Shown here piece after piece: positions 3,161 through 46,619 of a DNA stretch of 64,000 bases. The position numbers and the translations under genes are program-made. The DNA is taken from the NCBI GenBank assembly GCA_026874595.1, contig CM049316.1:38511195-38575194 (forward strand). Direction: 5' to 3'. Source of the stretch: Sipunculus nudus. Its lineage: Eukaryota > Annelida > Sipuncula > Golfingiida > Sipunculidae. Below the pieces are notes generated by a model that saw nothing but the letters and a program-made list of their open reading frames with translations, was not told the origin of the DNA and ran no database searches. How positions within the stretch are numbered: the first letter of the stretch is position 1; every line of letters begins with the position of its first letter.

Positions 3161-3164
3161 TACA

Positions 3165-3830: not shown

Positions 3831-3893
<63 letters not shown>

Positions 3894-4027
3894 ATAATCG
3901 TAAGAAAAAAAATTGCAGATTTTGTTTGACGAAAAAGTAAAACTACACGACAATAGATCAGAAATATACTAACGGTTCTAAGCGACAAGCGATTGTATAA
4001 ATACCCACGTATGTGTGTGTATATAAA

Positions 4028-4080
<53 letters not shown>
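3830..4080. repeat. Two (TA)n tracts
   Basis: TA repeats at about 3833-3890 and 4038-4078 flank a 145-base spacer. The 140-residue open frame across them on the minus strand is mostly alternating Ile and Tyr and is a product of the repeat, not a gene. Confidence 0.9.
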
Positions 4081-4081
<1 letters not shown>

Positions 4082-10205: not shown

Positions 10206-11429
10206 GCTAAATGATTATATCGACAAAGAAGTTGTGACTGGTATCATGAGTAAAGACCAAGTCTGTTTATTTGACTGTGAGTCATGTTGTCATGGCCATA
10301 CGCTCAATTGCTAGCTTTAGTCTAATATTATTGGAGACGGAAGATATTCCTTCCACGCTGACCCATTTTTGCTCATGCACAGGCGCATTTGCGTGTATTG
10401 TTCCCTTGCTGTGTTCCTGTCGAATGACCCAGTGTTGTAGTTTTAGTCAAAAGTAAGTTAGCGCTAGCAAGAATATTAATCAGATACATCTCCATTAAAG
10501 ATCTAATTAACATTTAATACATTTACACACCTGAGAGATAATTTTTTGTTGTGATATTACGGACTCGAACGCCTTATATGAATCGTCGTCGAAAGATGTC
10601 GCTAATCTGGTGTGAAGATCTACTGACCCTAAAAAGAAATGCGATTTGCCATCGGCCGCTAAAGAAAATTGGTTATTCATTCATGTGTGGTACAGACCTT
10701 GACCAGGGGTTTAACAATAAAGACTTGATAAACAGTTGAAAAAAACAAATGACCCGGGGCTACAGAGTCCCATCGTCATTACACGATTTTAGGTAAAAAA
10801 AAACTCAGATAAGTTTGTTTTCCTCCTAACAAATTAGATTGAATCATGCTGAAACCACAATGGTTTGCTTGTAATAACCGTGCATACCCTTATACGGTTA
10901 AAAAACACACATTATCGTATATCCGGCTATACCAGAAGTTATCAGATAAATAATTAGCCTTTGCCCTACAGCTGATAAGCAAAGTTGTGGATTCACATTC
11001 ATAACATTTGGGATTTCTGTTCTTAAGATTTGTTAACATATGGATGCAGCAGATATGTCTAAAAAATTAGAATTAAATGACAGTCATTTTGAAAGTACAG
11101 TTACGTCTACACTTTATCAATAAAGAAGTATTAAATATCTTAAATTTATACCATTGTTTTGTCTGTCTATTTGCAAGTTTATGCTTTAAAGGCACCCGTT
11201 AGATCTACATTGTGTGGTTATGGGTTTGTTTAGGGTACATACCCACCCCCACTTTAAAGCTTACTGAGACGATCAACGAAATCATCCCCTGGTATCCTGA
11301 AATAAGATTAATATATTGGAAATAAAATATGTATAAAATAATTAGAATGATTGTGACTTAGAATAACCTCATTTATGAGTTTACTGTAACACATTATATA
11401 ATTGGGCTTGGGGTTTAGAATTAACACAT

Positions 11430-11436
<7 letters not shown>
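10206..11436. repeat. Duplicated spacer, partner at 24.15-25.31 kb
   Basis: Long runs of near-identical text recur in the same order (GTGAGTCATGTTGTCATGG; GATACATCTCCATTAAAGAT; GCTGAAACCACAATGGTTTG; ACGATCAACG-like). A short frame at 10551-10739 is not conserved as a frame in the partner. No gene is supported. Confidence 0.85.
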
Positions 11437-11479
<43 letters not shown>

Positions 11480-11515
11480 TCACACACCCTCACACACACA
11501 CACACACATATATAT
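11436..11515. repeat. (TA)n and (CA)n microsatellite
   Basis: TA repeats at about 11440-11476 and CA repeats at about 11478-11508. The partner position in the second block is a longer TA tract at 25318-25387. Confidence 0.95.
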
Positions 11516-11516
11516 A

Positions 11517-11599
11517 GGTAAAGAGAAAGAGTGACGCCTTTTACATAGACTTACCTGTTTATTTATTCAATCTAAAAGGCTTAATTCTTTCTCTTTACC
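11517..11599. mobile_element. Short hairpin element (MITE-like), copy 1
   Basis: Two arms, GGTAAAGAGAAAGAGTGACG at the left and its near-complement at the right (ending CTTTCTCTTTACC), enclose about 30 bases. The partner at 25548-25629 has the same arms. It is non-coding and small enough to be a miniature transposable element or a stable hairpin. Confidence 0.65.
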
Positions 11600-12259
11600 A
11601 ACATTTCTACTACAGACTAACCCCCGCTATACCACTTATGTATGGGAAATATGAATTTTTAATGTTCGTAGATTTATTAAAAGAGGCGTCCCTACGTTTG
11701 ATTGCCCTTCCCCGCCTGCAAGTCCCCCCTCCCCTTGGATACAAGTCTACACCACTCCAGCTGCGATGCTTACAACAGATAACGAAACAATTCACATGCA
11801 AACATAAACGCAAGTAACATGAAAAACCTAAATTAAGATAAATAGAACAAGTGATGATAATGCAAATCAAGAGATCACGAAACGACATGCGGACCGATAA
11901 GAGTCACGGGTTACCAGATGGATAAACCGGATGCGCGGTTAAAGATAACCAGAAACAAAGGAACTATAACATGTTTATATATTTAAGCATTACATATGAA
12001 CCCTTATAATAACCGTTCAGGATTTACAGGAAGCAGTACACCGATCGATGTACTTTGGAACGGCCGCAGGAATATAGTTGCTGAATCATCAGATTAATTT
12101 GACATTCAGCGAACTGTTTACAGCCTAATTATAGTTTTCCGACTCTTGTTGTCCTTCAAACAGCGAACAGTCGTGGTAAATTGAGAGATACTGGAGCAAA
12201 TAGACGCCATAAACGGAAATATAGTAAATGAAAGACTTGGCTCGTGGAGTATAATAATC
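11600..12259 (+). promoter_or_regulatory. Upstream region of receptor pseudogene (conserved with intact copy)
   Basis: About 620 bases upstream of the pseudogene match 27715-28256 upstream of the intact gene. A conserved TTTATATATTTAAG at 11974-11987 lies at the same place as 27948-27961 and could be a TATA element. This is inference; the transcription start is not visible. Confidence 0.4.
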
Positions 12260-13896
12260 ATGGCTGAAAGAATTAGATTTGCGATGTTAATATTCTGGCC
12301 CCTTTGCCTTCAACCGACTTGGTCTACTGCTCTGCAAATCACTGGGACTGTTTATGCGAAAGACGGTTGGTCAGGGCTTGTGGCGAACATTACTGGAACA
12401 GATGGAGGTTTTCAATTGGATTATCTAACATTAGATTTTTCTTTTGGAAAATTGGACAAATGCAAAAAAATTGGAGCCATTAACATTCATTTTTCGTCAC
12501 AGAGATTCAACAGTCCGTTCCTCGTATCACCTGTTCAGATCTTTACCATCATGCAAAAATTAAAAATGTCCTCGGTCGAACATATTTTCCGATGCGGTGT
12601 TACAAAAGGCCCAGCACTTGCAGTTGTAGTAACATGACGATTATGCCATATTTAAAAATGCGATATCGGATATATATTGGATTTGATGGTTGTGAGGTCG
12701 GAATACCACTGGAGATGAAATACAGTTTTAGACTGACGCCCCTAAAATTTACATGCACGGTTCCCAATCCTGCTTTTCCATGTATCCATAAAGGTGTTGA
12801 GGGAAAGTACTTAAAAGACAATGGCTCTTTTGAGGGAGAAGCGCGTTTTCTAACTGATAATGATGTGCTCAATATTGTACATACAGCTGAGGAAATAACA
12901 TGTTACCTGTATATTGCAGAAATTGTTTGTCGAGTTAATTACCCAAACTGCCCAGGCGATAAATCAAATATCATCTGCCGGGAGGCATGTGAGGACGCTG
13001 CCCGAGCATGTCATACTGAATAATCGTCACTTGGCAGTTCGCCCTTCCTTGACGGACTGTGCACGTTGTTACCCTCACTAAGAAACGCCAGTGAATGTTG
13101 GTACAAAGCACCCGACTGCGGACCACCTCCAAATGTAAAACATGCGTACGCATGTTCATTGTCGGGAAAATGGAATGGGACCGCTCCAAAATGCATCAAG
13201 GAGAAAAAGCTACCCTTGACTGCAATAATTGTGTCCTCTTTGGTCACAGCATTCTTCAATCTCTCGGCTACATTGGTTGTGTATTACCGTAAAGAACTGG
13301 TAGCAATGGCTTATGTAAAAAAATTCGGATGTACAATTGGAAGACGCTTTTAGAAGCGGCGACGTTACGCTGCATACATCGTGTCAGAAGGGGATGACGC
13401 TGACGAGTTTGTGTCCGAAACTTTGCTGCCAGCCCTCGAAGATGACCATGGCTTATCGATACTTGCGAATGTAAGGGATGGACGTTTGGGAGCATACTTG
13501 CAAGAAGACTGCTTTATTGCAATGAAGGATTGTTCACGCGTTGTGTTTGTGTTCAACCAACCGTTTCTGGCGTCACCATCACTCCAACAACTGTTTCAGC
13601 AGGTTGAGGAATATGAGGAGGCTATCCCAGGATTCCGCGTTATCATACTCCTTGACAAGTCTTGTAGGAGACAGAAAACTAGAAACAAGTCTCTACAGGC
13701 CTACCTGAAGGCTGGTGTCTATCTGACTCCAGACAGACCCTGTTTCATTGAGAGACTGTTGTACCATCTACCGACTTACAAAGAAGACGAAAATGCTGCT
13801 ACTGAGGTCAAAAAGGAGACCCAGAAGTCGAGAAAGGATGTCTCTGTCGACCAAAATCCTGTTGAAAATATCCCATTACTGAGTGAATCATGTTAA
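12260..13896 (+). pseudogene. Frizzled-like/Sushi/TIR receptor pseudogene
   Basis: This is the degraded paralogue of the receptor at 28257-29978. The start ATG with the same signal peptide (MAERIRFAMLIFWPLCLQ) is intact. One T is missing from the T-run at 12490-12494 (five T against six), which shifts the frame. A TAA at 13021-13023 replaces a Leu codon in the Frizzled-like domain. An 87-nt in-frame deletion at about 13152/13153 removes 29 residues of the Sushi domain, including one of its four cysteines. A TAG at 13351-13353 replaces a Glu codon just before the TIR domain. A 3-nt insertion adds one Lys. From 13354 to 13896 the frame is open and holds a full TIR domain and the tail ending ENIPLLSESC. 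The lesions rule out the full receptor; a TIR-only product from a downstream start (GTG or internal ATG) cannot be excluded. Confidence 0.9.
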
Positions 13897-14237
13897 GTTA
13901 CACAGTAATCATATTTATGCTATTGCAACATGTACGTTCTCGTGACTGCATTGTATATTTATTTGCAATGGTTAGATATTTTTTATGCTTAATATCAATT
14001 CTTGCATTTTGGCATAAGCCACTTTTACATGCACATACATATACAATGTGACATTCAACAGAGAATAATAAAATTTCATATAAGAATTTATTTAATGTGT
14101 GCTTCTTCATATAAATTGGTGATCTTCTGGATAAGATACATATTGATAAGCACTGGTTTTCTTTTATAATCATTTCCTGTGTATGAATATATATTGTGAA
14201 GAAGAAAGTAACAATGTTACAGATGTCTTTTTTAATG
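13897..14237. other. 3' flank of the pseudogene
   Basis: Begins with text shared with the intact copy (CGTTCTCGTGACTGC, AAGCCACTTTT) and then diverges. AATAAA-like signals occur near 14066. The 182-residue minus-strand frame over 13898-14446 has no conservation and is rejected as a gene. Confidence 0.5.
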
Positions 14238-15003
14238 TGTGACACGGGCGTAACTCGTGTTGTAGCGGCCTCGCCCGAGTGTTGCACTCTCAGTTTAATC
14301 CGTACTGGTTGAACTCTCGCTGTCATGCAAGTCTGGGTCTTTCTCGGCTGGCCGAGCCGCGCCGGCTCACGTGTGAACCCTGACATGTATAGACACAACG
14401 TTCTATTGCTAGATGTTACCTGTAACGCGTGTTTACTGTGTATCATGTTAGATTATTTGGATTGTTCGAGAAATGGAAGGTTCTCGGCTGGAGGTGGGAA
14501 GTTATAAATAGGTTGCTGTGTTTTAGAGCCGAGAGAGAGGTGTGAGTATATTCCAGCGGACACAGAAGAGTGGGACCTTTTCTGATACATGCAGCAGTTA
14601 GAGATTTTCTTCAAATTTATGACGGATTTTATGTAGTCTTCAGTTTGCCTTTCGGATCACTGCAAGGATTTCAGTTTTGGATAACAGTAAATTGATTTTT
14701 TAATTACATTGGACTGTTATTCTCCGAGAAGATTTGTGTCATCCGGCTTATATATTTTAAATTACTTATCCCTGTGACAGTTGTTGAATCCAGGTACAGT
14801 GCACTTTCTTTATTTTACTGTGTGATTGTATTGATTATAGCTGTTATACTGTTGTTATACTGTATAATTGTATTGATTTAGTGTATTGTAATGTTAGGGT
14901 TGTTTTAAGAATCAATTTAAAAAATTAAAAAGAATAAATTAAATAAAAAAACACTGAATTCTTTATTCATTCCCCTAGACATTTCACGCTACCTAGTGTC
15001 ACA
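14238..15003 (+). mobile_element. LTR-like sequence (solo LTR candidate)
   Basis: Starts TGTGACAC and ends GTGTCACA, the short inverted termini typical of LTRs (TG...CA). It contains a TATA box (GTTATAAATAGG near 14503) upstream of TAGAGCCGAGAGAG. A related sequence lies on the minus strand at 19130-19789, sharing CCAGCGGACAC, GAGAAGATTT and TGTATTGATTTA in order. No clean target-site duplication and no gag or pol frame was found next to it, so it is called a solo LTR or a non-coding LTR-type fragment. Confidence 0.5.
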
Positions 15004-16960
15004 GAATCTGATTTTGTTTTTATCTCCATAAGCACATCTGTGCTCGTCACGACAACGTGATCTGTTGATATTAGGTTCCGTAACAACAAACATAAAAAGC
15101 AACAAATACCAGTCTCTGTGCAATGTATATAATGTTTGTATTAGTATAATATGATATCGTGGCTTCCACTATTCATGCATATACAGAGAATCGCTGTGTG
15201 TGTCTCTCGATAATGATCTTGTCAATAAAAGGTACCTTGTATATTCATGTTAGTTTATATATAAATCATATTATAAATCATATTGGAAAAAAAAATTATA
15301 TACAGCAAGTACTTAATAAACGAAATGGTTTTTGGTAGACTGCACCTGCAATCTGTTTGTGTTTAATTCCAATGTTTCACTGTGATCTTTCCATAAGGAA
15401 AGTAAAATAATGCATTATATAATAATTGATAAACTGATTCATTGATGTTAAGGACTTTTACTTGATTGGGCAATCACATAAAAACAAGATTATAATATAG
15501 CATCATAAAAGTCACATTGATAGCACCATGAATTTTAAGTCCATGTTTTCTAAAGAAAGTTGGATTATTCATTCATTTGTTTTCCATTCGTTGTTTTGAA
15601 GAATTTATCCAGGTACGCTAGGCCACTTAAAGGTTATCATTACGATTACAATATTCGTTGTTTTGAAGAATTTATCCAGGTACGCTAGGCCACTTAAAGG
15701 TTATCATTACGATTACAATATTCGGGAAAATTCAAGGGTATACTGAAACCATTATCTTACCCTCCTTTTGCAAAGCCATAAATGTTTTATATATTCAATT
15801 GATGGATCTAAGTTCTCTTTAGACGCACCATTGACAATAGATAGTTAATTAAAGGGCACATTAAACAATTTCCTTCCTAGTTTTCTTTCCCGGTACCACC
15901 CGGGGCCATATTTTGGGTATTATTTAGCAATGCACACATTTAAAGGCGTTTGTTTTTAATGCACCATCACAAGTTTCAAACACCTCAACCTGTCATTTAT
16001 TTGGAACCCTGAAATGGCACAGACCAGGGTACCAAGCAGATAAAACACCTTCTGTCCAAATGTCATAGCATTAAACCATTGTAATACAAAAAAAAATAAT
16101 TATGAAAAAGGCATAATTGTGTTAATGTTTGTTACGGTCTCTGTATGTATCACAACATCGCAAGATAGGATTTACAATGTTTAAGGCAAATAAAAAAAAA
16201 ATAATAAAAAAATAAATAAAATAAATAAAAGGTATGGTTTTCAGGCACCTTCTGCGTCAATTTGAGACCCACTCATTAATTTTATTTATTTTTTTTTTTA
16301 ATTTTTAATAAAACTTACCAATTTTGAGTTCCAGCCGCTCAGACATTTCTGTTAAGACGATAAAATAATACCATTTTGATAAAATTGCCTTTGTTTTGTG
16401 GTGCTTTTACTTCTTTAGCATACAAATCTGTTCTTATCATGCTTTTCCCTGATCATATGATATTTTTATCGAATTATTCAAAAAAGGGTAAACGGTATAA
16501 AAAATCGGCCGCCCGCATTGATATTTGAAATGAGCGCCTGGGAAACAAATTTTTTTTCTTGCCTAATGTTGTGTGAGTTACTCATCATCACCTTACTTCT
16601 TGTACATATACCGTTAATGGAGTAGTACTGTTTAATGCTGACAGGGGTCCTTATGTGTGTCACGCCATCACAAGGTAGAAGTTGTAATGTATGCATTGTG
16701 TGTAGTCGCCAGCAGACCTTCATATCTTTAAGTGCTTGGTCCTTTGACCAGTTATGTAACACTAACATTAAGTGTGTATCACAACTTTCCAAGATAGAAT
16801 TAACAATGTTTAATGCCGTGTGAGTTATTCATCACAACCATCCAACTTATACACATATGGTCCATTGAATCCTCCTGTTTAAACTCATATGGGTCTCTCT
16901 GTGTATCACAGAACCTCAAGATATGGCAAGGTAAGATTTGGGTGGTGAGTTACAACTAGT
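15004..16960. repeat. Duplicated spacer, partner at 30.65-32.18 kb
   Basis: From about 15290 on, the text matches 30640-32180 in order (ACAGCAAGTACT; TTTAAGTCCATG; CAGGTACGCTAGGCCACTT; GACAGGGGTCC). It is AT-rich and non-coding. Divergent internal repeats around GTATCACAAC occur at about 16120, 16560 and 16770. Confidence 0.8.
15585..15723 (+). repeat. 67-bp perfect tandem duplication
   Basis: The unit containing CGTTGTTTTGAAGAATTTAT starts at 15589 and again at 15656. The homologous place at about 30945 has only one unit, so the tandem copy arose in this block after the large duplication. Confidence 0.9.
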
Positions 16961-19837: not shown

Positions 19838-20337
19838 AGGAAACCATGGTGGGAGCACAGGAATCCAAAATATTTCGGCGATTTATTTATTTTTTGATCA
19901 CTGATAATGAAACTGATCTGTATCTATAATTTATAATCAAAGCAACCTAACTCATTTAAGGCCACGGTCAGATTTATCTCATTATTTTGCTCTGAACAGT
20001 TCACTTATGACAGCCTAGTGGGCAAATTAACATTGATTAAATATTGAATCAATATAAATCAAATAGGCGGCGAAACCCGGGAGGGGGGGGGGGGTGCTCC
20101 AATTACACATTTAGGGGCTCATATACCCCAATAATATGATGGAAAAACACATGGAGTACCAGAATTTCTCAAGGTACTGTAAGTATCTTCGCCTGTACAG
20201 GACTGTAATAGACTACTCCCTCCCCATGTCAACCCCCTTAAGTGCGTACAAACAAACACACACATACATATATATAAAGGCATTTATATAGTATGTCTAA
20301 TACCCCCCCCCCCCCCCATGAATATTTATCTTCGCCG
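19838..20337. repeat. Duplicated spacer lacking the beta-trefoil exon
   Basis: Matches 338-400 (CAGGAAACC, TGGTGGGAGCACAGG) and then jumps to the text of about 880-1380 (AAAGCAACCTAACTCATT). The beta-trefoil-like exon at 477-688 and its surroundings are therefore absent in this copy. Confidence 0.8.
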
Positions 20338-20655
20338 CCAATGTATTATCAATATTGAAACAATATTGGAAAAACGTTTTATTTGGAAATTGCTTCAACC
20401 TTGAATCATCAACATTCATTTAGAGATTATTGTCAAATCATTTTGATTCAATATTGACATATTAAAAAATTAATAATGATTTGCTAGTAGAAAATAAAAA
20501 AAAAATGATTCAATTATGAAAGTTGAAATCTAGTTGATAATTAACATTGAATCATCAATGTCAAATCATCATTGATTAAATCATCATTGATTTAATGTTT
20601 GAAACGAGTTGAAAATATCTCAACCTCATTTCAATATGTTTTCAATATTGAAAAA
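20338..20655. repeat. Short palindromic TTGA/TCAA repeat cluster, copy 2
   Basis: Partner of the cluster at 1386-1692. It includes an extra direct repeat of TCATCATTGATT near 20565-20600. Confidence 0.7.
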
Positions 20656-20689
20656 TGCCGCGATAACTTGAAGGGGCTTTTCACAAAAC

Positions 20690-21175
20690 CCACCACCAAT
20701 GGTTAATATAAATTATTTCGCCCGGTTTCGATTAATTGCAAAATCAACGCATATAATATTTAATATCTGAGGTCACTGTGTCACTAAGTGTCACCGCGAT
20801 AACTTACCTGGAATATGATAGATTTTTTTATAAAAAAATACAACAGAAATATTAGCCAATGTAACGTCTCGTCCAAATTCATGCATATTTAAATGAGGTC
20901 AATAATAAGACCGCCAGGGGTCTCAGACCTCATGATAATAATAAAAGGTCTGTAGGGAGTCTGAGGCACCATGATATCATAAATTGGATCGTTAGAGCCC
21001 TCCAGCTACATGCTGAAAACAATAGTTCTGCAGGGTCCCATTATATCATATAAATAAGACGGCATGCATGGAGCCTTCGACTCCAAGATAATAAAATAAT
21101 AGGTCTGTAGGAGACCTAGCCTCGTTTTAGTTCTCTATATATAATATTTACTGCGATACGTATATATTTTGAGGA
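20690..21175 (+). repeat. R3 fragment followed by a degenerate 60-bp tandem repeat
   Basis: 20690-20905 carries the R3 text CCGCGATAACTT twice. 20910-21130 then has about four diverged units around AGGTCTGTAGG and ATGATATCATAAA. It is non-coding. Confidence 0.5.
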
Positions 21176-21188
21176 GTAATAATCATAA

Positions 21189-21260
21189 TACAGTGGAACC
21201 TCTCCTTGCGCGCACCTCTGTACTTAGAGCATCTCCTATTTACGGCAATTTCCGGCCATT
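21189..21260 (+). mobile_element. One end of a Tc1/mariner-pogo type element
   Basis: CAGTGGAACCTCTCCTTG follows ATA and resembles the terminal inverted repeat of pogo/Tigger elements. I could not find the opposite end, so it is a fragment at best. Confidence 0.3.
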
Positions 21261-21599
21261 GACCCTCTCTATGGTTTGAGTTGCTTTATTACCTCCTATT
21301 TTGTTTCTCTATTGTGTTTACGACAGGGCCGATGGTCCTCCTGATTGCTCCACTGAAGTTGATTAGCTCAACTTAAGCTGATGACAGATGTCTCGGTTTG
21401 AGCAAGAAGTTTGTTATTAACTGCTTGATTTGAGCAAATCTTATGCTCGGGTCTGCGAATTCAGCGATGGGTTCATACAATAAACAATTAAGTCATCACT
21501 ATATAATGAATGCGAAATTAAAACTCAGTATATATATTTTTTTAAACTCAGAATATATGTTTTTATGTTTTTTAAACTGGTGTAATTTTCTTGTGTTGA

Positions 21600-21800
21600 T
21601 GCCATTCATGGCCCAGGTGCTTAAAGTCGATGAGGTGTAGGAAACCTTCGACCTTGGAAGGGCTACTTCATCCTACTCTCTTTGCCACGCCGGATATCGA
21701 ACCCGGGTGGCCAGCGGAGAGGGCTGAGCGTTTGCCACTTACCTGTCCAGGCTATCGTTCAACTGTAGTTGTAATAATAATAATAATAATAATAATTTTG
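21600..21800 (-). mobile_element. tRNA-derived SINE, minus strand, duplicate copy
   Basis: On the minus strand there is a B box (GGGTTCGATATCC), a tRNA-like head (CCTCTCCGCTGGCC) and a weaker form of the central domain (AGGTTTCCTACACC). It is the partner of 3165-3405. Confidence 0.7.
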
Positions 21801-22002
21801 ATATAACAAATAAATAATAATAAAAAATAATTTCCAGCACAACCATCCAAGCGCAGGGTCTCTGTGCCTCCCCTTCAGCCTAGTCATGGTTTTGAGTATA
21901 AACACAGTCCACGTATATCTTCTTACCATAACAAAGCCGCATGGCTAGAGGTCCGATTTTGCCCATTCGCGACATATCCGTAAATATATAAGTTAGAGTG
22001 TA

Positions 22003-22058
22003 GGTGTAAAATCAGGCAATTAGTAAATTGACTGATTTTACACATTGATTGTTACACC

Positions 22059-22120
<62 letters not shown>
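22003..22120. repeat. Hairpin and (TA)n tract
   Basis: TGTAAAATCAG and CTGATTTTACA form an 11-bp perfect stem with a 16-base loop. It is followed by about 58 bases of TA. Confidence 0.8.
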
Positions 22121-22128
<8 letters not shown>

Positions 22129-22131
22129 AAT

Positions 22132-22258
22132 CTGAAGAAAAACAACACTGTAAATTCACAACAGTCTGTTTCACGGGATGCGACCCGATCATCAGGTGAA
22201 TGTGGTTAGAATGAAGCTAACGGCGTGGTTTGAAATTTACAGTGTTGTTTTTCTTCAG
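22132..22258 (-). mobile_element. Small inverted-repeat element carrying a hammerhead ribozyme
   Basis: A 127-base unit sits inside TA repeats. Its arms are perfectly complementary over about 24 bases (CTGAAGAAAAACAACACTGT and its complement, continuing to AAATT). The interior holds the ribozyme and a smaller hairpin (GTTAG...CTAAC). A left half of the same element lies at 25454-25535. Size and ribozyme content recall retrozymes or the terminal repeats of Penelope-like elements; which of these it is cannot be decided from the sequence. Confidence 0.75.
22154..22201 (-). ncRNA. Type I hammerhead ribozyme
   Basis: The minus strand reads stem I (AUUCAC), core CUGAUGA (22195-22189), stem II with a UCGCAU loop, GAAA (22172-22169), a 3-bp stem III with loop GAC, the triplet GUU, and the stem I partner GUGAAU. 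Stem I is 6 bp with no mismatch. Stem II has four GC pairs after one U-U mismatch next to the core, where the usual pair is G-C. All conserved core bases are present, and GUU fits the NUH cleavage rule; cutting is expected after the base at 22160. A very short stem III is typical of animal mobile-element hammerheads. Function is inferred, not shown. Confidence 0.8.
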
Positions 22259-22284
22259 TATATATATATAATAATATATAAATA

Positions 22285-22475
22285 GATAAATCGCCACGTG
22301 AATTTAAACAGCCTGTGTGAGATGGGATCAACGTTTACTGGCCTTTTTAAAGACAAAGTTACAAGGGATTATCTTTCGTTAATACACGTCGACTAAACTG
22401 TAGATGGAATAGGCCCCTTTATAGTTAAAGGGGTATTAAGGTGGTATTTTAATTATTTCGATGTATGCAAAGTTT
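22285..22475. repeat. Duplicated spacer, partner at 4590-4765
   Basis: Shares the order of CACGTGAATTTAA-like text, CAGCCTGT, GATGGGATC and AAAGGGGTAT with the first block. It is non-coding. Confidence 0.7.
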
Positions 22476-22489
22476 GAATAATTTCTGGA

Positions 22490-23215
22490 TTTATTTATGA
22501 TTATCTTATGCAAAATTTTAACATTTAATATGCGACGCGATATCTCGAATAGTTTCCTTCAGATATACGTATAATTGCAGTAGCATGTGCATCTTTTTAG
22601 TCTGTAGAGTTGAGTAGGTTTTGGTACCACTTGAACGATTTTTAGACTTTTTAATTAATTTTTTATTCAAAATTTTTATATTTCAGATGTGACTTTATTT
22701 CTTAAAAAGTTTCACTTGGATCTACTTATTAGAGTAACAGGTCCATTTTGAGAGTCTCCAGAGTTGATTAGGTTTTGGTCACACTTGAATGAATTTTGGA
22801 TTTGTTATAGGCCCGTCAAGAACGGGATATATAATGGTATACCCTAAATCCCTCCGTCCATCCATCTGTCCGTCCGTCCAATTACTTTTAGTGTCGCCGC
22901 GATCACTTACAAGGGCTTTGATGGATTTACATCAAATTTTATAATTGCCATCACCAAAACAATAGATTATCTCACCCGGGTTCAATTATAGGCAAAATCC
23001 CCGAATATTTATTGAGGTCAGAGGTCATAAAGGTAGTTTTTCGGGTCGCCGCGATAACTTACAAGGAATACTACAGATTTTGATCAAACTCAACAGAAAT
23101 AATAATGACACTCAATAAACATAATTACAAAAAGAGTTTCTCACCTGAATTACATTCTCATCAAAATTCACATATATTTAATGAGGTCAGAGGTGACTAG
23201 ATTCAAAACGGGCGT
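22490..23215 (+). repeat. Dispersed repeat R3, copy 2
   Basis: Contains GCGACGCGATATCTCG, CCCGTCAAGAACGGGATA, CCGTCCGTCC and CCGCGATAACTTACAAGG, in the same order as 7036-7575 and the halves at 9330-10205. It is non-coding. Confidence 0.7.
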
Positions 23216-24130: not shown

Positions 24131-25314
24131 TTGGAACAGCTGTTCAACTGTGACTCGTATCATGGTTAAAGTCTCAGTCTGTTAATTTGAAATGAAAGGC
24201 CTGTGAGTCATGTTGTCATGGTTATACGCTCCATTGAATGCTTCTAGCTTCAGTCTGATATTATTAGAGACGGAAGATTTACCTTGCACGGTGACCTCTC
24301 TTTACTCATGCACATGCGCATTTGCGTTTGATGGTCCCCTCCTGTGTTCCTTTCTAATGACCCAGTGTCGTAGCTTTCGTCAAAAGGAATTAAGCGCTTT
24401 TTATCAAAAACTTTTATCAGATACATCTCCATTAAAGATTTAATTAACATTTAATATATTTCTACAACTGGGAGATGATTTTTGTTGCGATATAAAGGAC
24501 TCGAAAACTCAATGTGAGTCGTCGTGGAAAGATGTCGCTATTCTGATGTGACGATCAATTGTCCCTTCATTGTCATTCTTTTTGCCATCGGCCGCTTAAG
24601 AAAAGTGATTCATTCATGTGTGGTACAGACCTTGACCAAGGGTTTAAAAATAAAGACTTGATAAACAGACCAAGAAAAAAATGACTTGGGGCCTACAGAA
24701 TCCCATATCTATTACACGATTATAGGTCAACTCAGATAAGTTTATTTTTCTCCTTACAAAATAGATGGAATCATGCTGAAACCACAATGGTTTGCTTGTA
24801 ATAACCGTGCATACCCTGACACGGTCCAAAAATACCCATTATCATATATCCGGCTATGGCTGAATATATCAGATAAATCATTCGCATTTCCCCTCCAGCT
24901 GATATACAAAGTTGTGGATTCACCTTCATAACAGTTTGGATTTTTGTTCTAAAGATTTGTTAACATATGAATGCAACACATATATCTCAAAAAATAAGTA
25001 TTAAGTGACAGTCAATTTGAAAGTATACCACAGTTACGTCTACGGTTTATCAAGAAAGAAATATAAAATATCTTAACTTAATACCAGTGTTTTGTGGTGT
25101 TGTGTTTGATTAGGGTATATACCCACCCTCATTTTATAGCCAAGTGAGACGATCAAGGCAATCATCCCCTGGTATTCTGAAAATAAGATAAATATATTGG
25201 AAATAAAAATATATATATAATAATTAGAATGACTTTTGACTTAGAATAACCTCATTTATGAGTTTACTGTAACATTTTATATAATTCAGCTTTGGGTTTA
25301 GAATTAACGCACTC

Positions 25315-25316
<2 letters not shown>
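24130..25316. repeat. Duplicated spacer, partner at 10.21-11.44 kb
   Basis: Direct, gapped match to the first block. The 733-bp element and its R3 flank are not present upstream of it. Confidence 0.85.

Positions 25317-25317
<1 letters not shown>

Positions 25318-25387
<70 letters not shown>
25318..25387. repeat. (TA)n microsatellite
   Basis: About 70 bases of uninterrupted TA. Confidence 0.95.
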
Positions 25388-25390
<3 letters not shown>

Positions 25391-25453
25391 GTAGTGTTAC
25401 CCTCCGATGTAAAGTGCTCTATGGCCTACAGACTAGGCAAGAGCGGTATAACT

Positions 25454-25535
25454 CTGAAGAAAAACAACACTGTAAATTCACTACAGTCTGTTTCACGGGA
25501 TGCGACCCGATTATCAGGTGAATGTTGTTAGAATC
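25454..25535 (-). mobile_element. Truncated copy of the hammerhead element
   Basis: Left part of the 22132-22258 element, from CTGAAGAAAAAC to GTTAGAAT. The right arm is lost. Confidence 0.75.
25476..25523 (-). ncRNA. Hammerhead ribozyme copy with mutated core
   Basis: Same fold as 22154-22201, with stem I AUUCAC/GUGAAU, stem II and GAAA kept, and cleavage triplet GUA. The core reads CUGAUAA, so G8, a catalytic base of the hammerhead, is A. It is expected to be inactive. Confidence 0.7.
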
Positions 25536-25547
25536 TAAATATATAGA

Positions 25548-25629
25548 TAAGGAGAAAGAGTTACGCTTTTTAGGTGGTTTATCTTGTTATTTAGTCTTTC
25601 TAAAAGGCGTCACTCTTTCTCTTTACTTA
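25548..25629. mobile_element. Short hairpin element (MITE-like), copy 2
   Basis: Partner of 11517-11599; the right arm ends CTTTCTCTTTACTTA. Both copies sit just upstream of the same TTTCTACTACAGACTAAC sequence, so the element predates the duplication. Confidence 0.6.
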
Positions 25630-25658
25630 CATTTCTACTACAGACTAACACGCCTATA

Positions 25659-26255
25659 GGTAGTATCTCACATGGCTGCGACAGCTTGCGACTAGTTAGA
25701 GACACGACAATTGCGAGAAAATACGCGAATCAGCGACAATTTTCACTTGCAATCACACTGACTCGTATCTACGACATGTTTGCGAACATCGTACGAGTGT
25801 TTGGCCCAAAATTCGGCTGGAGTTCGTAAACCCGTCGTGCGAATGTCGTGCGATATTCACAAGACATTCGCACGACATTTGTGAAATATTCGCACGACAA
25901 TTCGCGACCAGAATGTCAGATTCTCGTTTTTATCTCCAAATATTCGCAAACCCCTCTCAAAGTTCTCTAGCAGTTCTCGCAATTCCTGACTCGCAGAAAC
26001 TTTCTTGAGAATAGTTCGAGACATGTTTGAGACGGGTTTGAGACACAAGCGACGCCTCTGCGACTATTTTGCGAGAAATTATGTTTTGCGAATTTTTGAA
26101 CATGTTCAAAATTTGGGCGACAAGTTGGTTACACTTTGCGAATCACGCGAAGAAATTGAGAACCGCCGCGAATGTTTTAAGACACTTTTGAGACTCTCTT
26201 GCGAATGAATTCGCAATATGTCGCAAAGCTGTCGCAACCCAGTGAGATACAGGCT
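25659..26255. mobile_element. 597-bp foldback element with TATA target duplication
   Basis: Ends are GGTAGTATCTCACATGG and the complement of AGCCTGTATCTCACTGG, continuing inward as GCGACAGCTTGCGAC against GCGACAGCTTTGCGAC. The flanks repeat TATA (25655-25658 and 26256-26259). The homologous place in the first block (near 11635) reads GCTATACCACTT without the insert, which fixes the borders. The interior is packed with GCGAAT/ATTCGC and GAGAC/GTCTC in both directions. The two open frames inside (25584-25829, 26005-26208) run across these motifs and are not genes. Confidence 0.85.
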
Positions 26256-26266
26256 TATACCTCTAA

Positions 26267-26307
<41 letters not shown>

Positions 26308-26312
<5 letters not shown>

Positions 26313-26462
26313 CGGTGTATTGCAAAAAGGTGATTCGCATACTGCGTATTGCGATAGAGTCTTCAAATATCGATATTTTTTTATGTTTTGTTAAACTTGC
26401 CTAATTTTTTTTTATTTATGATACACTTACAGTGAAAGCCGCTACCGTGTCTTGATATAGAC

Positions 26463-26509
<47 letters not shown>

Positions 26510-26659
26510 CGGTGTATTGCAAAACGGTGATTCGCATACTGCGTATTGCGATAGAGTCTTCAAATATCGATATTTTTTTATGTTTTGTTAAACTTGCCTA
26601 ATTTTTTTTTATTTATGATACACTTACAGTGAAAGCCGCTACCGTGTCTTGATATAGAC

Positions 26660-26706
<47 letters not shown>

Positions 26707-26858
26707 CGGTGTATTGCAAAACGGTGATTCGCATACTGCGTATTGCGATAGAGTCTTCAAATATCGATATTTTTTTATGTTTTGTTAAACTTGCCTAATT
26801 TTTTTTTTTATTTATGATACACTTACAGTGAAAGCCGCTACCGTGTCTTGATATAGAC

Positions 26859-26903
<45 letters not shown>
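26308..26903 (+). repeat. 197-bp tandem repeat, three near-identical units
   Basis: GGTGTATTGC starts at 26314, 26511 and 26708, giving a period of exactly 197. Each unit includes about 160 bases of unique text, with GATTCGCATACTGCG and CAGTGAAAGCCGC, and about 38 bases of TA. Units differ at only a few bases. The repeated 60-residue minus-strand frames (26381-26563, 26578-26760) are artefacts. Confidence 0.95.
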
Positions 26904-26905
<2 letters not shown>

Positions 26906-27702
26906 GTAGTGCGCCGTATTTCCGAATGCCGAATTTCCGAAGATTCTTTTTTTCGAAAATTAAAATTTGGAACCCAAAATTAATTTGTATTTTCGAATTA
27001 TATTTCAAGTATATAGATACCTTAAATGAACATTTGATTTACGAGTCACAAGGCCTGCAGTCATGTGTTAAGCCCAGTGGTGACCCTAATTAATTAGTTC
27101 TGGGCCAATGTTGTCGCCGGGGCAAAGGCGTGAAAACTGCAGCTAGCCCCCAACGCTCGGCCTCCTGTACCCCTAGCAAGCGACTGAGCAGTTTATCTAA
27201 GAGCACTTGTGTGTTATCAACCACATCTGGTTTGTACTCAAGCAAGCATAGTTCGTGGTCTTCGGACAGGATGTCAAGCCAAATAACTGAGCATCAGCAT
27301 TGGTGAGGTATAATTCATTAAACGATTGTGCTCTAACAGCTTTAATATGTCCGAGTCTTCAATTACGTAGATCGATAAGATACACCGTGTTCCTTGGTGA
27401 TGTCATTTGACCTTTCTCTCCGATGAATTTGATGAATAAAAGAGCACGCACGTATCCTGAAAGCATGTTAGACTGATCTTTGCCAATTATGCTCAGCCAT
27501 AATCCAATATCTTTTATATCTCCTGGTCGTCAATTACGAATATCGAAAAGAAACACCGTGTTCCTCGGGTAAAATGGCATTCATTTAATCACTAACTATC
27601 GTACTAACTTGCCGCTAGACCCTTGTCTGCATTTCCGAATGTTTGTTTTTACGAACAAAATGCTTGTCCCCCGACGCTTTCGAAAAAAATGGCGCTCTAC
27701 TG
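26904..27702. mobile_element. 799-bp non-autonomous pogo-like element
   Basis: Left end CAGTAGTGCGCCGTATTTCC and right end the complement of CAGTAGAGCGCCATTTTTTT form terminal inverted repeats. TA or TG dinucleotides flank it, fitting the TA target of the Tc1/mariner-pogo superfamily. Subterminal TTTCCGAA/TTCGAA motifs repeat at both ends. No transposase frame is present. It is missing from the matching place in the first block. Confidence 0.65.
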
Positions 27703-27714
27703 TATATACATTAC

Positions 27715-28256
27715 TGGGAAATATGATTTTTAATGTTCGTAGAATTATTGAAAGAGGCGTCACTACGTTTGATTACCCTTCCCGCCTGCAAGTCCCCCAC
27801 CCCCTTGGATATAAGTCTACACAACTCCAGCTGCGATGCTTACAAGAGATAACGAAACAACATGCGGACCGATAAGAATCACATGTTTCCAGATTGATAA
27901 ACCGGATGCGCGGTTTAAGATAACCAGGCAGAAGGAACAATAACATCTTTATATATTTAAGCATTGCATATGAACCCTAATAATAACCGTTAAGGATTTA
28001 CAGGAAGCAGTACACCGACAGATATACTTTTGAAACATAAGGAGTGGCTGCAGGATTATAGATGCTGAATCATCAGAATAATTTGACATTCAGCGAATTG
28101 TGTGTTACAGACTGATTATAGTTTTACGATTCTTGTTGTCCACCAAACGGCGAATAGTCGTGGTAAATTGAGAGATATTGGAGCAAATAGACGCCAAAAA
28201 AATTGATAAGTGGTAATATAGTAAATGAAAGACATGACCCGTGGAGTATGAAAATC
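27715..28256 (+). promoter_or_regulatory. Upstream region of the receptor gene
   Basis: Conserved with 11635-12259. A putative TATA element TTTATATATTTAAG lies at 27948-27961, about 300 bases before the start codon. Nothing else recognisable. The mobile insertions at 25659-27702 lie directly upstream and could have replaced more distal control sequence. Confidence 0.4.
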
Positions 28257-29978
28257 ATGGCTGAAAGAATTCGATTGGTGATGTTAATATTCTGGCCCCT
28301 TTGCCTTCAACTGACATGGTCTACTGCTGAGCGAATCACTGGGACTGTTTATGCGAAAGACGGTTGGTCAGGGCCCGTGGCGAATATAACCGAAACAGAT
28401 GGAAGTTTTCAATTGGATGGTCTTTCAGTGGATTTTCCGTTTGGAAAATTGGACGAATGCAAAAAAATTGGAACCATTAACATTCATTTTTTCGTAACAG
28501 AAATTCAACAGTCCTTTCCTCGTATCACATGTTCTGATCTTTACCAACATGCAAAAATTAAAAATGTCCTCGGTCGAACATATTTTCCGATGTGGTGTAA
28601 CAAATTGCACAGCACGTGCAGTTGTAGTACACGCGTGGTTATGCCATATTTTAAAATGCGATTTCGGACATATATTGGATTTGATGCTTGTGAGGTCGGA
28701 AAACCTCTGGATATGAAATACAGCTTTAAACTGACGTCCCTCAAATTTACATGCACGGTTCCCCATCCAGCTTTCCCGTGTATCAGTAAAGGTGTGGTTG
28801 GAAAGTTCTTAAAAGACAATGGCTCTTTCGAGGGAGTAACAACATTTCTAACTGAAAATGATGTGTACATTATTGTACACGCAGCTAAGGAAATAACATG
28901 TTACCAGCATATTGCAGAAATTGTGTGTCGAGTTAAATACCCAAATTGTCCAGGCGATAAAACAAATATCGTCTGCCGTGAGGCATGTGAGGACGGAGCT
29001 CGAGCATGTCATACTGAGTTGTCGTCAATTGGGGGTTCACCCTACCTTGACGGACTGTGCCCGTTGTTACCCTCACTACGAAATACGAGAGAATGTTGGT
29101 ACAAAGCGCCCGACTGCGGAGAACCGCCAAATGTCACACATGCGTACGCAAAAATTGTCCGCTATGCTTACAATGCTTATTCTGTATTATATTCATGCCG
29201 GGACAGTTACACATTGGTTGGCGCTAGTCGTATCAACTGTTCATTGTCGGGAAAATGGAACGGGACCGCTCCAAAGTGCGTTAAGGAGAAAAAGCTGCCC
29301 TTGACTACAATAATTGTTTCCTCCGTGGTCGCAGTCATCTTCAATCTCTCGGCTGCACTGGTTGTGTATTTCCGTAAAGAACTGCTAGCATTGGGCTATG
29401 TAAAATTTGGGTGTACTATTGGAAGACGCTTTGAGAAGCGGCGACGTTACGCTGCATACATAGTGTCAGAAGGGGATGACGCTGACGGGTTTGTAATCGA
29501 AAGTTTGCTGCCTGCTCTAGAAGGTAAACATGGCTTATCGGTACTTGCAAATGTAAGGGATGGACTTTTGGGAACACCCTTGCAAGAAGACTGCTTTATT
29601 TCAATGAAAGAATGTTCCCGCGCCGTGTTTGTGATCAACCAACCGTTTTTGGAGTCATCATCACTCCAACAACTGTTTCGGCAGGTTGAGGAATATGAGG
29701 AGGCTATCCCAGGATTCCGCGTTATCATACTCCTTGACAAGTCTTGTAGGAGACAGAAAACAAGAAACAAGTCTCTACAGGCCTACCTGAAGGCTGGTGT
29801 CTATCTAACTCCAGACAGACCCTGTTTCATTGAGAGACTGTTGTACCATCTACCGACCTACAAAGAAGAAGAACCTGCTGCTGCTGAGGAAGAAAAGGAG
29901 ACACAGAAGTCGAAAAATGATGTCTTTGTCGACGCAGAATCTGATGAAAATACCCCATTACTGAAAGAACAATGTTGA
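28257..29978 (+). CDS. Frizzled-like/Sushi/TIR single-pass receptor
   Basis: Intact 573-residue intronless gene. The ATG at 28257 (A at -3, G at +4) is chosen because it is conserved in the pseudogene; an ATG three codons earlier is not, and the frame runs upstream only to a TTG. Residues 1-24 form a signal peptide. Residues 25-200 are an unrecognised cysteine-containing module. About 207-285 match the C-terminal part of a Frizzled cysteine-rich domain: IAEIVCRVKYPNC, then VCREACEDGARACHTEL, a Gly-containing segment, LCPLLP and a final Cys. Residues 287-341 are a Sushi/CCP domain (Cys 287, 314, 328, 341; Trp 334). A transmembrane helix spans about 347-372. About 397-533 is a TIR domain (box 1 YAAYIVSEGDDADGFV; box 2 RDGLLG; box 3 CFIERLLYHL). 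The acidic tail ends ENTPLLKEQC, a [DE]xxxL[LI] sorting motif. By family knowledge TIR domains recruit adaptors in innate immunity; ligand and pathway are unknown. AATAAA at 30311. Confidence 0.93.
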   Translation: MAERIRLVMLIFWPLCLQLTWSTAERITGTVYAKDGWSGPVANITETDGSFQLDGLSVDFPFGKLDECKKIGTINIHFFVTEIQQSFPRITCSDLYQHAKIKNVLGRTYFPMWCNKLHSTCSCSTRVVMPYFKMRFRTYIGFDACEVGKPLDMKYSFKLTSLKFTCTVPHPAFPCISKGVVGKFLKDNGSFEGVTTFLTENDVYIIVHAAKEITCYQHIAEIVCRVKYPNCPGDKTNIVCREACEDGARACHTELSSIGGSPYLDGLCPLLPSLRNTRECWYKAPDCGEPPNVTHAYAKIVRYAYNAYSVLYSCRDSYTLVGASRINCSLSGKWNGTAPKCVKEKKLPLTTIIVSSVVAVIFNLSAALVVYFRKELLALGYVKFGCTIGRRFEKRRRYAAYIVSEGDDADGFVIESLLPALEGKHGLSVLANVRDGLLGTPLQEDCFISMKECSRAVFVINQPFLESSSLQQLFRQVEEYEEAIPGFRVIILLDKSCRRQKTRNKSLQAYLKAGVYLTPDRPCFIERLLYHLPTYKEEEPAAAEEEKETQKSKNDVFVDAESDENTPLLKEQC

Positions 29979-30650
29979 CTTATTCAGTAATGATATTTAT
30001 GCTATATCAACATATACGTTCTCGTGACTGCCCTGTATATTGTGTTGCATGCAATGGTTATATATTTCAATGTTTAAAATCAACTCTTGCTTATTCATTT
30101 TGGCGTAAGCCACTTTTGTCATATTATCATTGTTCATTGTATTTTACCGAAAGGGCTATACGTTTAATTAAATACATGTACATTATCGCGTTTAACAGGG
30201 ATTCATAAGGAATTATATTGGGTTTCAGTTTTATTTTGCTATAGGACTCTGTCCGAGGACATCATGTGTAAAGGTGTTACAACTACTAGTCCTACTGTTT
30301 GAAAGAGTATAATAAAGCGGTGGTCCTGGAGCTGTGTTTTTGAAAGCAATCACGTCATGCTAATGATCTAATCGACTCTTGTCCTCGTATTGTGCTGCTT
30401 TAAAACTGAAATGATAATTACAAAAGTTGATTTCTTAATTCAATGTTTGTATAAGGCATCGGATTGACGTCATTGTTTTGTGTCCTTGACTGAGAGCATA
30501 TGTATTCTGGATACTGAATATATATTAATATATTTTTTTTATAATTTAATATTTCTACATTGTGTGAAGGCTGTAAGGCCCATTGTGCGACTTTTAAAAG
30601 TGATATCCTAATTTCAATGTTTGTTAATGTAACTTAAGTTAACATAATTA
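29979..30650 (+). terminator. 3' flank with polyadenylation signals
   Basis: AATAAA occurs at 30311-30316 and again at about 30664-30670. The first is about 330 bases after the stop codon. The stretch otherwise shows no gene; a short frame at 29972-30208 is 3' UTR. Confidence 0.4.
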
Positions 30651-32180
30651 TAAACAGCAAGTACTAAATAAACGAAATTGTTTTTGGTAAGACTTTGCAC
30701 ATGCAATCTGCTCGTTTTTAATTCCAACGTGTCACTGTGATCTTTCCATAAGAAAGGCGACATAATGCATTATATAATCATAGATAAACATTTTCTTTGA
30801 TGTAAAGGAGTTTTACATGATTAAGGAATCACATAAAAAATTACTATAATATACCATCGTAAAAGTCACATAGACAGCGCCATAAATTTTAAGTCCATGT
30901 TTTCAAAAAAAAGTTGTATTATTCATTCATTTGTTTTCCATTCATTGTTTGGAAGAATTAATCCAGGTACGCTAGGCCACTTCAAGGTCTTCATTAAGAT
31001 TACAACCTTTGGGAAAATTCAAGGGTATCCTGAGTCAACTATTTTACTCTTCTTTTGTAAACCATAAATGTTTTATATATTCATTTGATTGATCTAAGTT
31101 ATCTTCAGACGCACCATTTACAATAGGTAGTTAATATAAGGGCACATTTAACAACTGCCTTACCAGTTTCCTTTCCCGGTACCATCCAGAGCCATATTTT
31201 AGGCATTATTTAGCTATATACACATGTAATAGCGTTAGTATGTGATGCATCACACCATCAAAGGTTCTAAACAGACTGCTCGACCCAGACATCTCCCATT
31301 TATTTGGAACCTAGAAATTGCACAGACCAGTGTACCAAGGCAGATAAAACACCCTCTGTCCAAATATCATAGTATTTAACCATTGTAATACCAAAAAAAA
31401 ATGTATGGAAAAGGCATACATCTGTTTAATGTTCATTTCGGTCTCTGTACATATAACATCACATGATAGGATTTACAATGTATAAAGCCAAAAAAATAAA
31501 TAAATAAATAAAAGGTATGGTTCTCAGGAACCTTCCGCATTAATTTGAAACCCACCCATCATTTTTTTTATTAATATTTATTTTCAATAAAACATACCAA
31601 TATTGAGCTCCAGCCTCTCGGTCATATCTTTCAAAAAAAGATACAATTTGAAAAAAAAAATCCCTTTGTTTTGTGGTACTTTTAATTGTTTAGCAAACAA
31701 ATCTGTTAATAACCTGCTTTTCCCATTATGTGATATTTTTATCGAAACATACAAAAAAGATAAACGGTATAAAAAATCGCCCGCCCGCATCGATATATGA
31801 AAAAAAGTGCCTCAGAACCAAATTTTATTTTTGGCCTTATGCTGTGAGCGTAGCTCATCAAAACCTTACTCCTTGTACATATATGTTCATGGACTAGTAC
31901 TGTTTAATGCTGACAGGGGTCCCTGTGTGTGTCAAACCATCACAAGGTAGAAGTTGTAATGTATGAATTGTGTGTAGTTGCCAGCAGATCTTCATATCTT
32001 TTAGTGGTTGGTCCTTTGACCAGTTATGACACACTGACATAATGTGTATGTCACAACTTCACAAGGTAGAATTATTAATGTATAACGCTGTGTGAGTTAT
32101 TCGTCACAACCATACAGCTTTTACACATATGGTCCATTGATTCGTTTTGTTTAAACTCATATCGATCTCTCTGTGTATTA
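30651..32180. repeat. Duplicated spacer, partner at 15.29-16.96 kb
   Basis: Direct match to the first block; it ends near CTCTCTGTGTATTAAAT, where the two blocks part. It is non-coding. Confidence 0.8.
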
Positions 32181-39370: not shown

Positions 39371-40083
39371 TCATATTATGCATACACATATATTTTATTA
39401 TTTTTAAATCATAAATGTTTAAACTGAATTTAAAAGAAATAATGCCACAACATGGCATCTACAAGAATATTCCTTGAATCATTATTAAAAAGTTTTGCAC
39501 ATTGGAGTTTTCAGTACATGCTTAATTTTATTCACCAAAATAAAATAAAAGATTCAGTAAATTTGATAAAATAAAACATCTTTTCAAATAAAGTATACAC
39601 ACTGTTGGTTGATTGAGGGACAAACAATATCATTGTGCTAATTACTATCCCAGTTTTAATTTATTACTGGAATTAATAGTCAATTTCACACCTGGTGAAG
39701 TTTTTACTCTTCTGAAGTAAGAAATTACTTATCTCATGAACATCCACACTTTCATAGCAATACACCACTTTGTGGACACAATTAAATGTACACTTTAATC
39801 ATTGTAACCCTGGTGGTACAATACAAAATCTAAAATGTAGCATAGCCTAGAATAAGAATGAATCAAATACAGAAAATAATAACATTTATCTAGTTTATGC
39901 ACCATCGGGGGGGGGGGGTGCAGGGCAGAGGGGAAGCCTGCTGGTAGTGGCCAAGCTGACCCAAGGCAAGCTGCCATGGGTGGGTTACATTATGCAAGTG
40001 AAGGCTGTACTACTAGGTGGGCAAGATGTAAACAACACTTGACATGGTGTATGAAAACATGAATGAAAGCTTTTTTTTTTCAA
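39371..40083. other. Gene-free spacer with G tract
   Basis: A run of 11 G lies at about 39908-39918. Frame 39795-39977 has no motif. Confidence 0.5.
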
Positions 40084-45860: not shown

Positions 45861-46619
45861 AAGGGGATCACCAACACTTCTGCATATACATTCAGGGCAA
45901 ACAAAGCCTGATCTCCGATTCTGCTGAGGCAGGAAAATAATGAACAAATGTTTGTATTAGATCCTCATTTTTTTATCTCATAAAAGTTAATTCATGATTC
46001 TAAATTGCATCATCATATATCTCAATCTTGTTAGATAACCCCACATCATGCATACAAATGTATATTTATTTTTTTACCACACAAATATATCTTTTAAATT
46101 TGCAAAACAAAAAATATCTAAATATAATACTTGATTCAGATTTCACAATTTTTAATTGTGCCTTTATTAATCTGTAATTTGCTTCATATTTAATAAATTA
46201 ATGCATACTGATGGGTTTAATTTTAATATTTTAAAATCATTTAAAAGGAAATTAATTTCTTTAAAATGCTACTTTAACCCAAAGGACATCTTCTGGATTA
46301 CTCAATGAATAACCCATTCAAGGAAAGTTTTGTATATTGGAGTGAAAACAGCATTACAGTTGAAGAAAAACAGGGCAAACAATAACAATTACTGCATAAC
46401 ACTTGGTGGGTAGGGTTGGCAGGGGTGGGGAGGGTGGATTTGATATGAGAATAACTGTACACCTGTCACAGCATGGGATCTCCCCCAGTGACCAGTAACA
46501 AATCAGGAACCCTGGCATAGATAACTTAACTTCCAGTGACCAGGAGTGGACTGCCTGCATCTGGACAAAGCAAGTGACTATTACAGAGCCTCAACAACAA
46601 AAAATCAATTATTAGCATA

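Follow-up and report, generated by a model that had tools for sequence, protein, structure and literature searches.

To our knowledge, animal surface receptors with a TIR domain have nearly always been described with ectodomains of leucine-rich repeats (LRRs) or immunoglobulin (Ig) folds. Here, we analyze a stretch of 64,000 nucleotides from the genome of the sipunculan worm Sipunculus nudus (GenBank assembly GCA_026874595.1, contig CM049316.1, positions 38,511,195 to 38,575,194; hereafter "the window"), in which a gene at 28257-29978 encodes a TIR receptor with a Frizzled-type cysteine-rich domain (CRD) and a Sushi domain in its ectodomain. With a probability of roughly 0.6, we take this gene to encode one of a group of type I transmembrane receptors that has expanded in the lineage and in which a three-domain ectodomain binds a ligand and a cytoplasmic TIR domain signals.

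According to a survey of TIR proteins (PMC7075850), few members of the Toll/Toll-like receptor (TLR) group depart from the LRR form, the exceptions named being sea anemone proteins with Ig-like replacements and, in Hydra, a protein that lacks a ligand-binding domain; the words "frizzled" and "sushi" do not occur in its main text. A review of mollusc TLRs (PMC12521104) describes a lineage expansion of non-TLR TIR proteins, in which it resembles what we report here, and the Aplysia immunome (PMC9334734) contains ARM-TIR, EGF-TIR, IG-TIR and orphan TIR proteins; both differ from the present family in that "frizzled" is absent from their main texts. Together with a sponge study (PMC8242945) and the Mercenaria genome paper (PMC8905726), the passages on TIR partners in these sources name LRR, Ig, ARM, EGF and COR, not Fz, and otherwise deal with expansions of TIR and of Sushi proteins apart from each other; in the sponge paper, "frizzled" stands in a figure legend. 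In the open-access literature searched on this architecture, we found no description of an Fz-TIR receptor. This negative covers open-access papers and, among sequences, a protein collection with no invertebrate named among its matches; we do not claim that the Fz-Sushi-TIR architecture is the first of its kind.

Gene structure and domain architecture

At the site of the window on contig 11, an ATG at 28257 opens a frame of 573 amino acids that ends with a stop codon at 29976-29978. This frame is not there by chance: its ectodomain contains 20 cysteines in order, a single hydrophobic segment follows the N-terminus, and 30 further open frames of this genome align with it lengthwise. The gene and its product are laid out as follows:

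28257..29978, plus strand: coding region, single exon, 573 amino acids plus stop, with a second in-frame ATG upstream at 28248
28257..28328, plus strand: predicted signal peptide, residues 1-24 (hydrophobic N-terminus; helix 2-20 in the structure model)
28329..28736, plus strand: N-terminal beta-sandwich domain, residues 25-160, six cysteines (structure model)
28737..29105, plus strand: Frizzled-type CRD, residues 161-283, ten cysteines between 166 and 280 (Pfam Fz, profile comparison)
29109..29285, plus strand: Sushi/CCP domain, residues 285-343, four cysteines (Pfam Sushi)
29295..29369, plus strand: transmembrane helix, residues 347-371 (hydropathy peak; helix 349-371 in the model)
29370..29441, plus strand: basic juxtamembrane helix, residues 372-395 (high conservation in the window gene's clade)
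29442..29861, plus strand: TIR domain, residues 396-535 (fold)
29862..29975, plus strand: acidic C-terminal tail of low confidence, residues 536-573 (predicted local distance difference test score, pLDDT, below 50 at 537-573)
30311..30316, plus strand: AATAAA, possible polyadenylation signal, read from the sequence only

Past the N-terminus, the hydropathy profile contains one hydrophobic segment (residues 352-370) and no other above 1.6, so that a single such segment follows the signal peptide, and not the seven transmembrane helices of Frizzled and SMO. The Sushi domain scores 37.6 bits in the whole protein against a Pfam cut-off of 20.7 (E-value 2.9e-9), and its four cysteines span residues 287-341. 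Neither LRRs nor Ig domains appear among the Pfam matches up to E 10, and neither a kinase nor a Kringle is among the protein's Pfam matches. Matches to AbrB, PhyR_sigma2 and sigma factors over the transmembrane helix and TIR domain fell far under their cut-offs and were put down to composition.

For the Frizzled-type CRD, the Pfam Fz score of the window protein is borderline, with 27.6 bits (E 4.6e-6) for the whole protein against a cut-off of 32.1, and 32.3 bits (E 1.6e-7) for the cropped domain; the window gene with its neighbours likewise gave 32.3 bits in the genome scan. The ten cysteines of a CRD are all found in order (166, 175, 215, 224, 231, 240, 244, 251, 268 and 280). They are kept in 26 of 31 aligned family members, and the other five members form one sub-clade that lacks exactly residues 215 and 251, which we take to be C3 and C8 of the CRD, forming one disulfide. 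Their joint loss is consistent with a shared disulfide, but is not strong evidence for one because it is a single event. A profile of 12 family Fz domains matched five Frizzled-type CRDs from this genome (L052-L056, which by eye comprise three Frizzled receptors, one SFRP-like and one Smoothened-like protein) with a probability of 97.3 and an E-value of 2.4e-11, and the Fz domain as a single sequence found no match in the PDB. The Frizzled receptors L052, L053 and L054 also lie in long single frames, of 574, 607 and 594 amino acids in the Fz scan, truncated by the limits of the stretch analyzed.

The N-terminal domain has cysteines at residues 68, 92, 114, 121, 123 and 145, all kept in the 24 members of the window gene's clade, and when folded alone reaches a pLDDT of 85.8 and a predicted template modeling score of 0.80. 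No Foldseek match of this model reached E 1e-3, and Wntless is found among the matches at 3.1e-3. Searching the PDB by sequence gave four matches for the domain, all to unrelated proteins (E 0.32-0.56), and none for a sister-clade profile. In the sister clade (see below), five of the nine N-terminal domains tested resemble TMEM145_N, under the cut-off and with a best E-value of 2.4e-5. An APP_N heparin-binding domain, seen in 1 of 18 members at E 0.08, was dropped as a candidate.

The TIR domain of the window protein is weak by Pfam, the TIR_2 model giving E 0.12 for the whole protein and 0.0097 for the cropped domain (16.8 bits against a cut-off of 28). The structure model, on the other hand, has the TIR fold over the whole domain. 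In a fold search, the top Z-score went to IL-18R-beta, tied with TLR15, and the matches listed for the whole model were taken up by TIR proteins; by sequence, the best PDB match was SIGIRR (E 9e-4), the highest of seven weak TIR matches.

The first-pass annotation had proposed an intronless gene for a single-pass receptor with a Frizzled-like, a Sushi and a TIR domain, and an ectodomain free of LRRs and Ig folds. The gene is real, and the single pass, the single Sushi domain and the lack of LRR and Ig matches hold; "intronless" applies to the coding region, which is one exon. Both the Fz and the TIR domain have significant support by profile or by fold, the former borderline by Pfam and backed by the genome's own Frizzled-type CRDs, the latter by its fold and its family and not by its own Pfam score. 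What had been overlooked in the ectodomain is the separate beta-sandwich at residues 25-160.

A multigene family with two clades

A family protein search of the genome (1,426,538,692 bases in 153 contigs) yielded at least 77 matching stretches, which is a floor because the search scores only the best candidates, and which includes at least one ordinary LRR-TIR gene (L037) matched through its TIR domain. The latter (L037, 1486-4482, minus strand) is a Toll-like gene in one frame of 999 amino acids. We aligned 31 open frames including that of the window gene, of which 24 belong to its clade and 7 to a sister clade; these sizes are biased, because the sample was gathered with a query from the window clade. 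Each of the 31 has one coding exon, and they are spread over nine contigs (2, 3, 4, 7, 8, 9, 11, 12 and 14), with clusters on contig 11 at ~38.5-38.64 Mb (the window), contig 2 at ~85.2-85.33 and 2.64-2.68 Mb, contig 3 at ~24.3 Mb, contig 4 at ~41.3 Mb and contig 12 at ~73.9-74.3 Mb. Two more open frames stand outside the tree: L049, with TIR, Fz and Sushi, and L020, with Sushi and TIR and no Fz at E 0.1. A genome-wide Fz scan gave 57 matches, ordinary Frizzleds included, and the Fz domains of L030, L032, L033, L034, L035, L036, L039, L040 and L041 scored above the cut-off. Because stops are listed in 32 of the 77 stretches, two of which (L020 and L023) are actually open over 536 and 537 amino acids, the family looks like one of the birth-and-death type. 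On contig 9, three sets of Fz-like and TIR-like fragments (L042, L043 and L044, at ~17.945, 17.969 and 17.992 Mb) follow one another in ~23-kb steps with equal or near-equal scores and may stem from a family remnant that was recently triplicated.

The two clades are separated with a support of 100/100. In the sister clade, TIR, TIR_2, Fz and Sushi are each found in all seven members at E 0.1, with best E-values of 1.8e-14, 5e-15, 6e-12 and 4.7e-10, respectively, and L030, the only sister member with bit scores, exceeds all four cut-offs (54.3 bits for TIR_2, 53.5 for TIR). At the same threshold, the window clade matches Sushi in 23/23, Fz in 18/23, TIR_2 in 15/23 and TIR in 12/23 members. Across the 31 members of both clades, 17 of the 20 ectodomain cysteines are invariant, and the window gene keeps all 20. 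Mean identity rises from the N-terminal domain through Fz and Sushi to TIR in both clades (28.7%, 36.2%, 41.5% and 51.5% in the window clade; 32.5%, 38.8%, 40.8% and 53.9% in the sister clade, TIR being its highest). Directly after the membrane, residues 373-395 reach a mean pairwise identity of 58.4% among the 24 window-clade members, above that of the TIR domain, and 24.4% in the sister clade, where the stretch is not conserved. This juxtamembrane helix (29370-29441) is of the type RKELxAxLYVRxGxTIGRRFE and exceeds all other parts of the window-clade protein in conservation.

Over whole proteins, the ratio of nonsynonymous to synonymous substitution rates (dN/dS) lies between 0.22 and 0.62, and thus below 1 in 14 of 14 pairs; the pair of window gene and L002 gives 0.40 (dN 0.046, dS 0.115). 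By domain, values around 1 are seen in the N-terminal domain of L010/L012 (1.01) and in Fz of L017/L018 (1.02), and the short membrane stretch gives 1.30 in L003/L005 and 1.21 in L035/L036. Judged by identity, the ectodomain evolves faster, which is not evidence of positive selection.

Within the window, the receptor gene lies in one half of a duplication:

10233..16906, plus strand: upstream half of a tandem segmental duplication, with the pseudogene, in collinear blocks of 80-88% identity to 24149-32178
12260..13896, plus strand: pseudogene, a broken duplicate of the receptor gene with two deletions and two in-register stops
24149..32178, plus strand: downstream half, with the intact gene, in the same collinear blocks

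The pseudogene is 88.3% identical to the intact gene (1443/1634 aligned bases) and carries a 1-nt deletion at ~12489, an 87-nt deletion at ~13152, a TAA at 13021 and a TAG at 13351. The pair is a tandem duplication whose upstream copy died. Weaker blocks of 72-84% identity pair 1367-7563 with 20313-22990.

Beyond this genome, a collection of 5.8 billion proteins contained no homologue at E 10 of either the whole protein or its TIR region, in a search that requires shared five-letter words. With a sister-clade profile, the same collection gave 16 matches at E 1, comprising 11 LRR-TIR proteins (those with a named source coming from loaches and a caecilian) and 5 further TIR proteins, of which one bears the label Chloroflexi. 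None of the 16 carries a Pfam Fz or Sushi domain; no invertebrate is named among them, so this is not proof of absence in other animals.

A multigene family is thus borne out. The first-pass annotation had described the gene as duplicated; the copy within the window is a pseudogene, and open copies are found outside it, of which L002 has the most similar sequence (91% identical). The TIR assignment of that annotation was right, and had missed that the window TIR belongs to a divergent branch, with a sister branch of textbook TIR domains. The Wnt- or glycan-type ligand and the immune signaling that it put forward stay conjectural.

Proposed mechanism and competing explanations

Under the preferred reading of a ligand-binding, TIR-signaling receptor, the steps beyond the architecture are drawn from TIR biology. 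The N-terminal beta domain, Frizzled CRD and Sushi domain would bind a ligand; ligand binding or receptor clustering would then bring TIR domains together, and the gathered domains could seed a TIR-TIR assembly that takes in an adaptor or a further receptor, most probably in the context of innate immunity. The RDxxPG motif of the BB loop is a variable feature of TIR domains and not a universal one. In the window protein, this loop reads RDGLLG, and its proline is found in 0/24 members of the window clade (Leu or Ile instead) versus 7/7 in the sister clade, where RDF-x-PG and WCxxEF are present in every member. Several TLRs need the BB-loop proline to engage their adaptor; it is missing from TLR3, whose adaptor is a different one. 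Its replacement in the window clade therefore suggests that partners have changed there. Sister-clade receptors, with their canonical loop, would recruit an adaptor directly, and those of the window clade would more likely be altered-specificity or partner receptors than NADases.

Several points weigh against this reading. The window TIR stays under its Pfam cut-off, and 5 of 23 members of its clade have no Fz match at E 0.1. The TIR dN/dS ranges from 0.14 to 0.68, with the top value in L017/L018; domain values are noisy, and that of TIR is not always the lowest. Finally, an immune role is suggested as most likely by the TIR domain, the expansion and the faster ectodomain together, a combination that other receptor families would fit as well.

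Of the alternatives, an inhibitory or decoy receptor similar to SIGIRR fares best, though we regard it as unlikely. Here, the TIR of the window clade would no longer recruit an adaptor and would dampen the canonical sisters or TLRs, in keeping with the loss of the BB-loop proline in this clade and with SIGIRR as the best PDB sequence match. However, that match heads a list of weak ones, and for a pure decoy it would be odd to keep the TIR domain at a mean identity of 51.5% alongside a diverging ectodomain.

Rather less probable is a receptor for Wnt or another lipid-modified ligand, in which the CRD, perhaps with a GOLD-like domain, binds the ligand and the TIR domain drives development or tissue repair rather than immunity. 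The homology of the family Fz domains to the genome's own Frizzled-type CRDs speaks for it, as do the TMEM145_N resemblance of the sister clade and the Wntless match of the N-terminal model; PMC9711517 counts both TMEM145 and WLS, a chaperone of Wnt, among the GOLD-domain (GOST) proteins. We are just as hesitant about a broader proposal, under which these genes would represent a large and so far undescribed class of animal receptors. Two modules known from Wnt and lipidated-protein biology, a GOLD-like domain as in Wntless and TMEM145 and a Frizzled CRD, would be fused to a Toll-type TIR domain, lipidated or acylated ligands of host or microbial origin would trigger innate immunity, and a repertoire of ectodomains would have arisen by diversification.

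That the gene is a duplicate decaying to a pseudogene, still open by chance, is very improbable: its tandem neighbour is dead and stops are frequent in the family, as noted, but 573 codons are open, all 20 ectodomain cysteines are intact and the dN/dS against L002 is well below 1. A SARM1-like TIR NADase receptor is the least credible of all, and NADase activity in the window clade is unlikely, because the window protein has Leu where helix alpha-C would carry the catalytic Glu (SLQQL, aligned with WCVQE of L030) and neither the Trp nor the Glu of WCxxEF is present in any of the 24 members, by alignment only. Among metazoan receptor TIR domains that do carry this Glu, most are not known to be NADases.

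With a Frizzled CRD standing where LRRs or Ig folds would be expected, the multigene family is a well-defined example, open to testing, of a different ligand module coupled to TIR. In addition, a canonical and a divergent clade within one genome allow adaptor use and BB-loop function to be compared.

Surrounding sequence and relation to known systems

Apart from the receptor duplication, the window contains several repeats. At 26271-26861, a 197-nt unit with an AT run in each copy occurs three times head to tail; identity to the first copy is 99% for the second and 82% for the third. A dispersed repeat lies in both orientations at 40040-41121, 46561-47233 and 55635-56977 (~65-93% alike between aligned pieces), and 9395-10127 and 52054-52788 form a separate duplicated stretch of ~740 bases with 85.5% identity. 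On the minus strand, an 88-codon frame at 5613-5876 resembles by eye a reverse transcriptase fragment of a long interspersed nuclear element, with no match in Pfam. The window gave no Rfam match at the gathering cut-off and no tRNA, and Pfam on ten other frames gave a single match, at E 0.21.

The receptor family shares parts with several groups of known proteins. With Frizzled, ROR, MuSK, SFRP and RECK, it has the ten-cysteine CRD in common, and at E 0.1 the Fz model of RECK is also matched by 9 of 23 window-clade members; unlike the seven-pass Frizzled receptors, the window protein has one transmembrane helix and a TIR domain, with no Pfam match to a kinase or Kringle. The possible GOLD-like N-terminal beta sandwich, suggested by the sub-cut-off TMEM145_N matches in the sister clade, would be shared with the GOST proteins TMEM145, GPR180 and WLS. 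These have seven transmembrane helices, which the window protein lacks; it is a candidate member only. The likeness to the interleukin-1 receptor family and SIGIRR lies in the TIR domain, nearest to IL-18R-beta (tied with TLR15) by fold and to SIGIRR by sequence, but the ectodomain there is built from Ig folds, of which the window protein has no match. With Toll-like receptors, finally, the family shares a single pass through the membrane and a cytoplasmic TIR domain, which in the sister clade has the TLR-type RDF-x-PG and WCxxEF motifs, whereas the LRR ectodomain of those receptors is replaced here by a beta domain, a Frizzled CRD and a Sushi domain.
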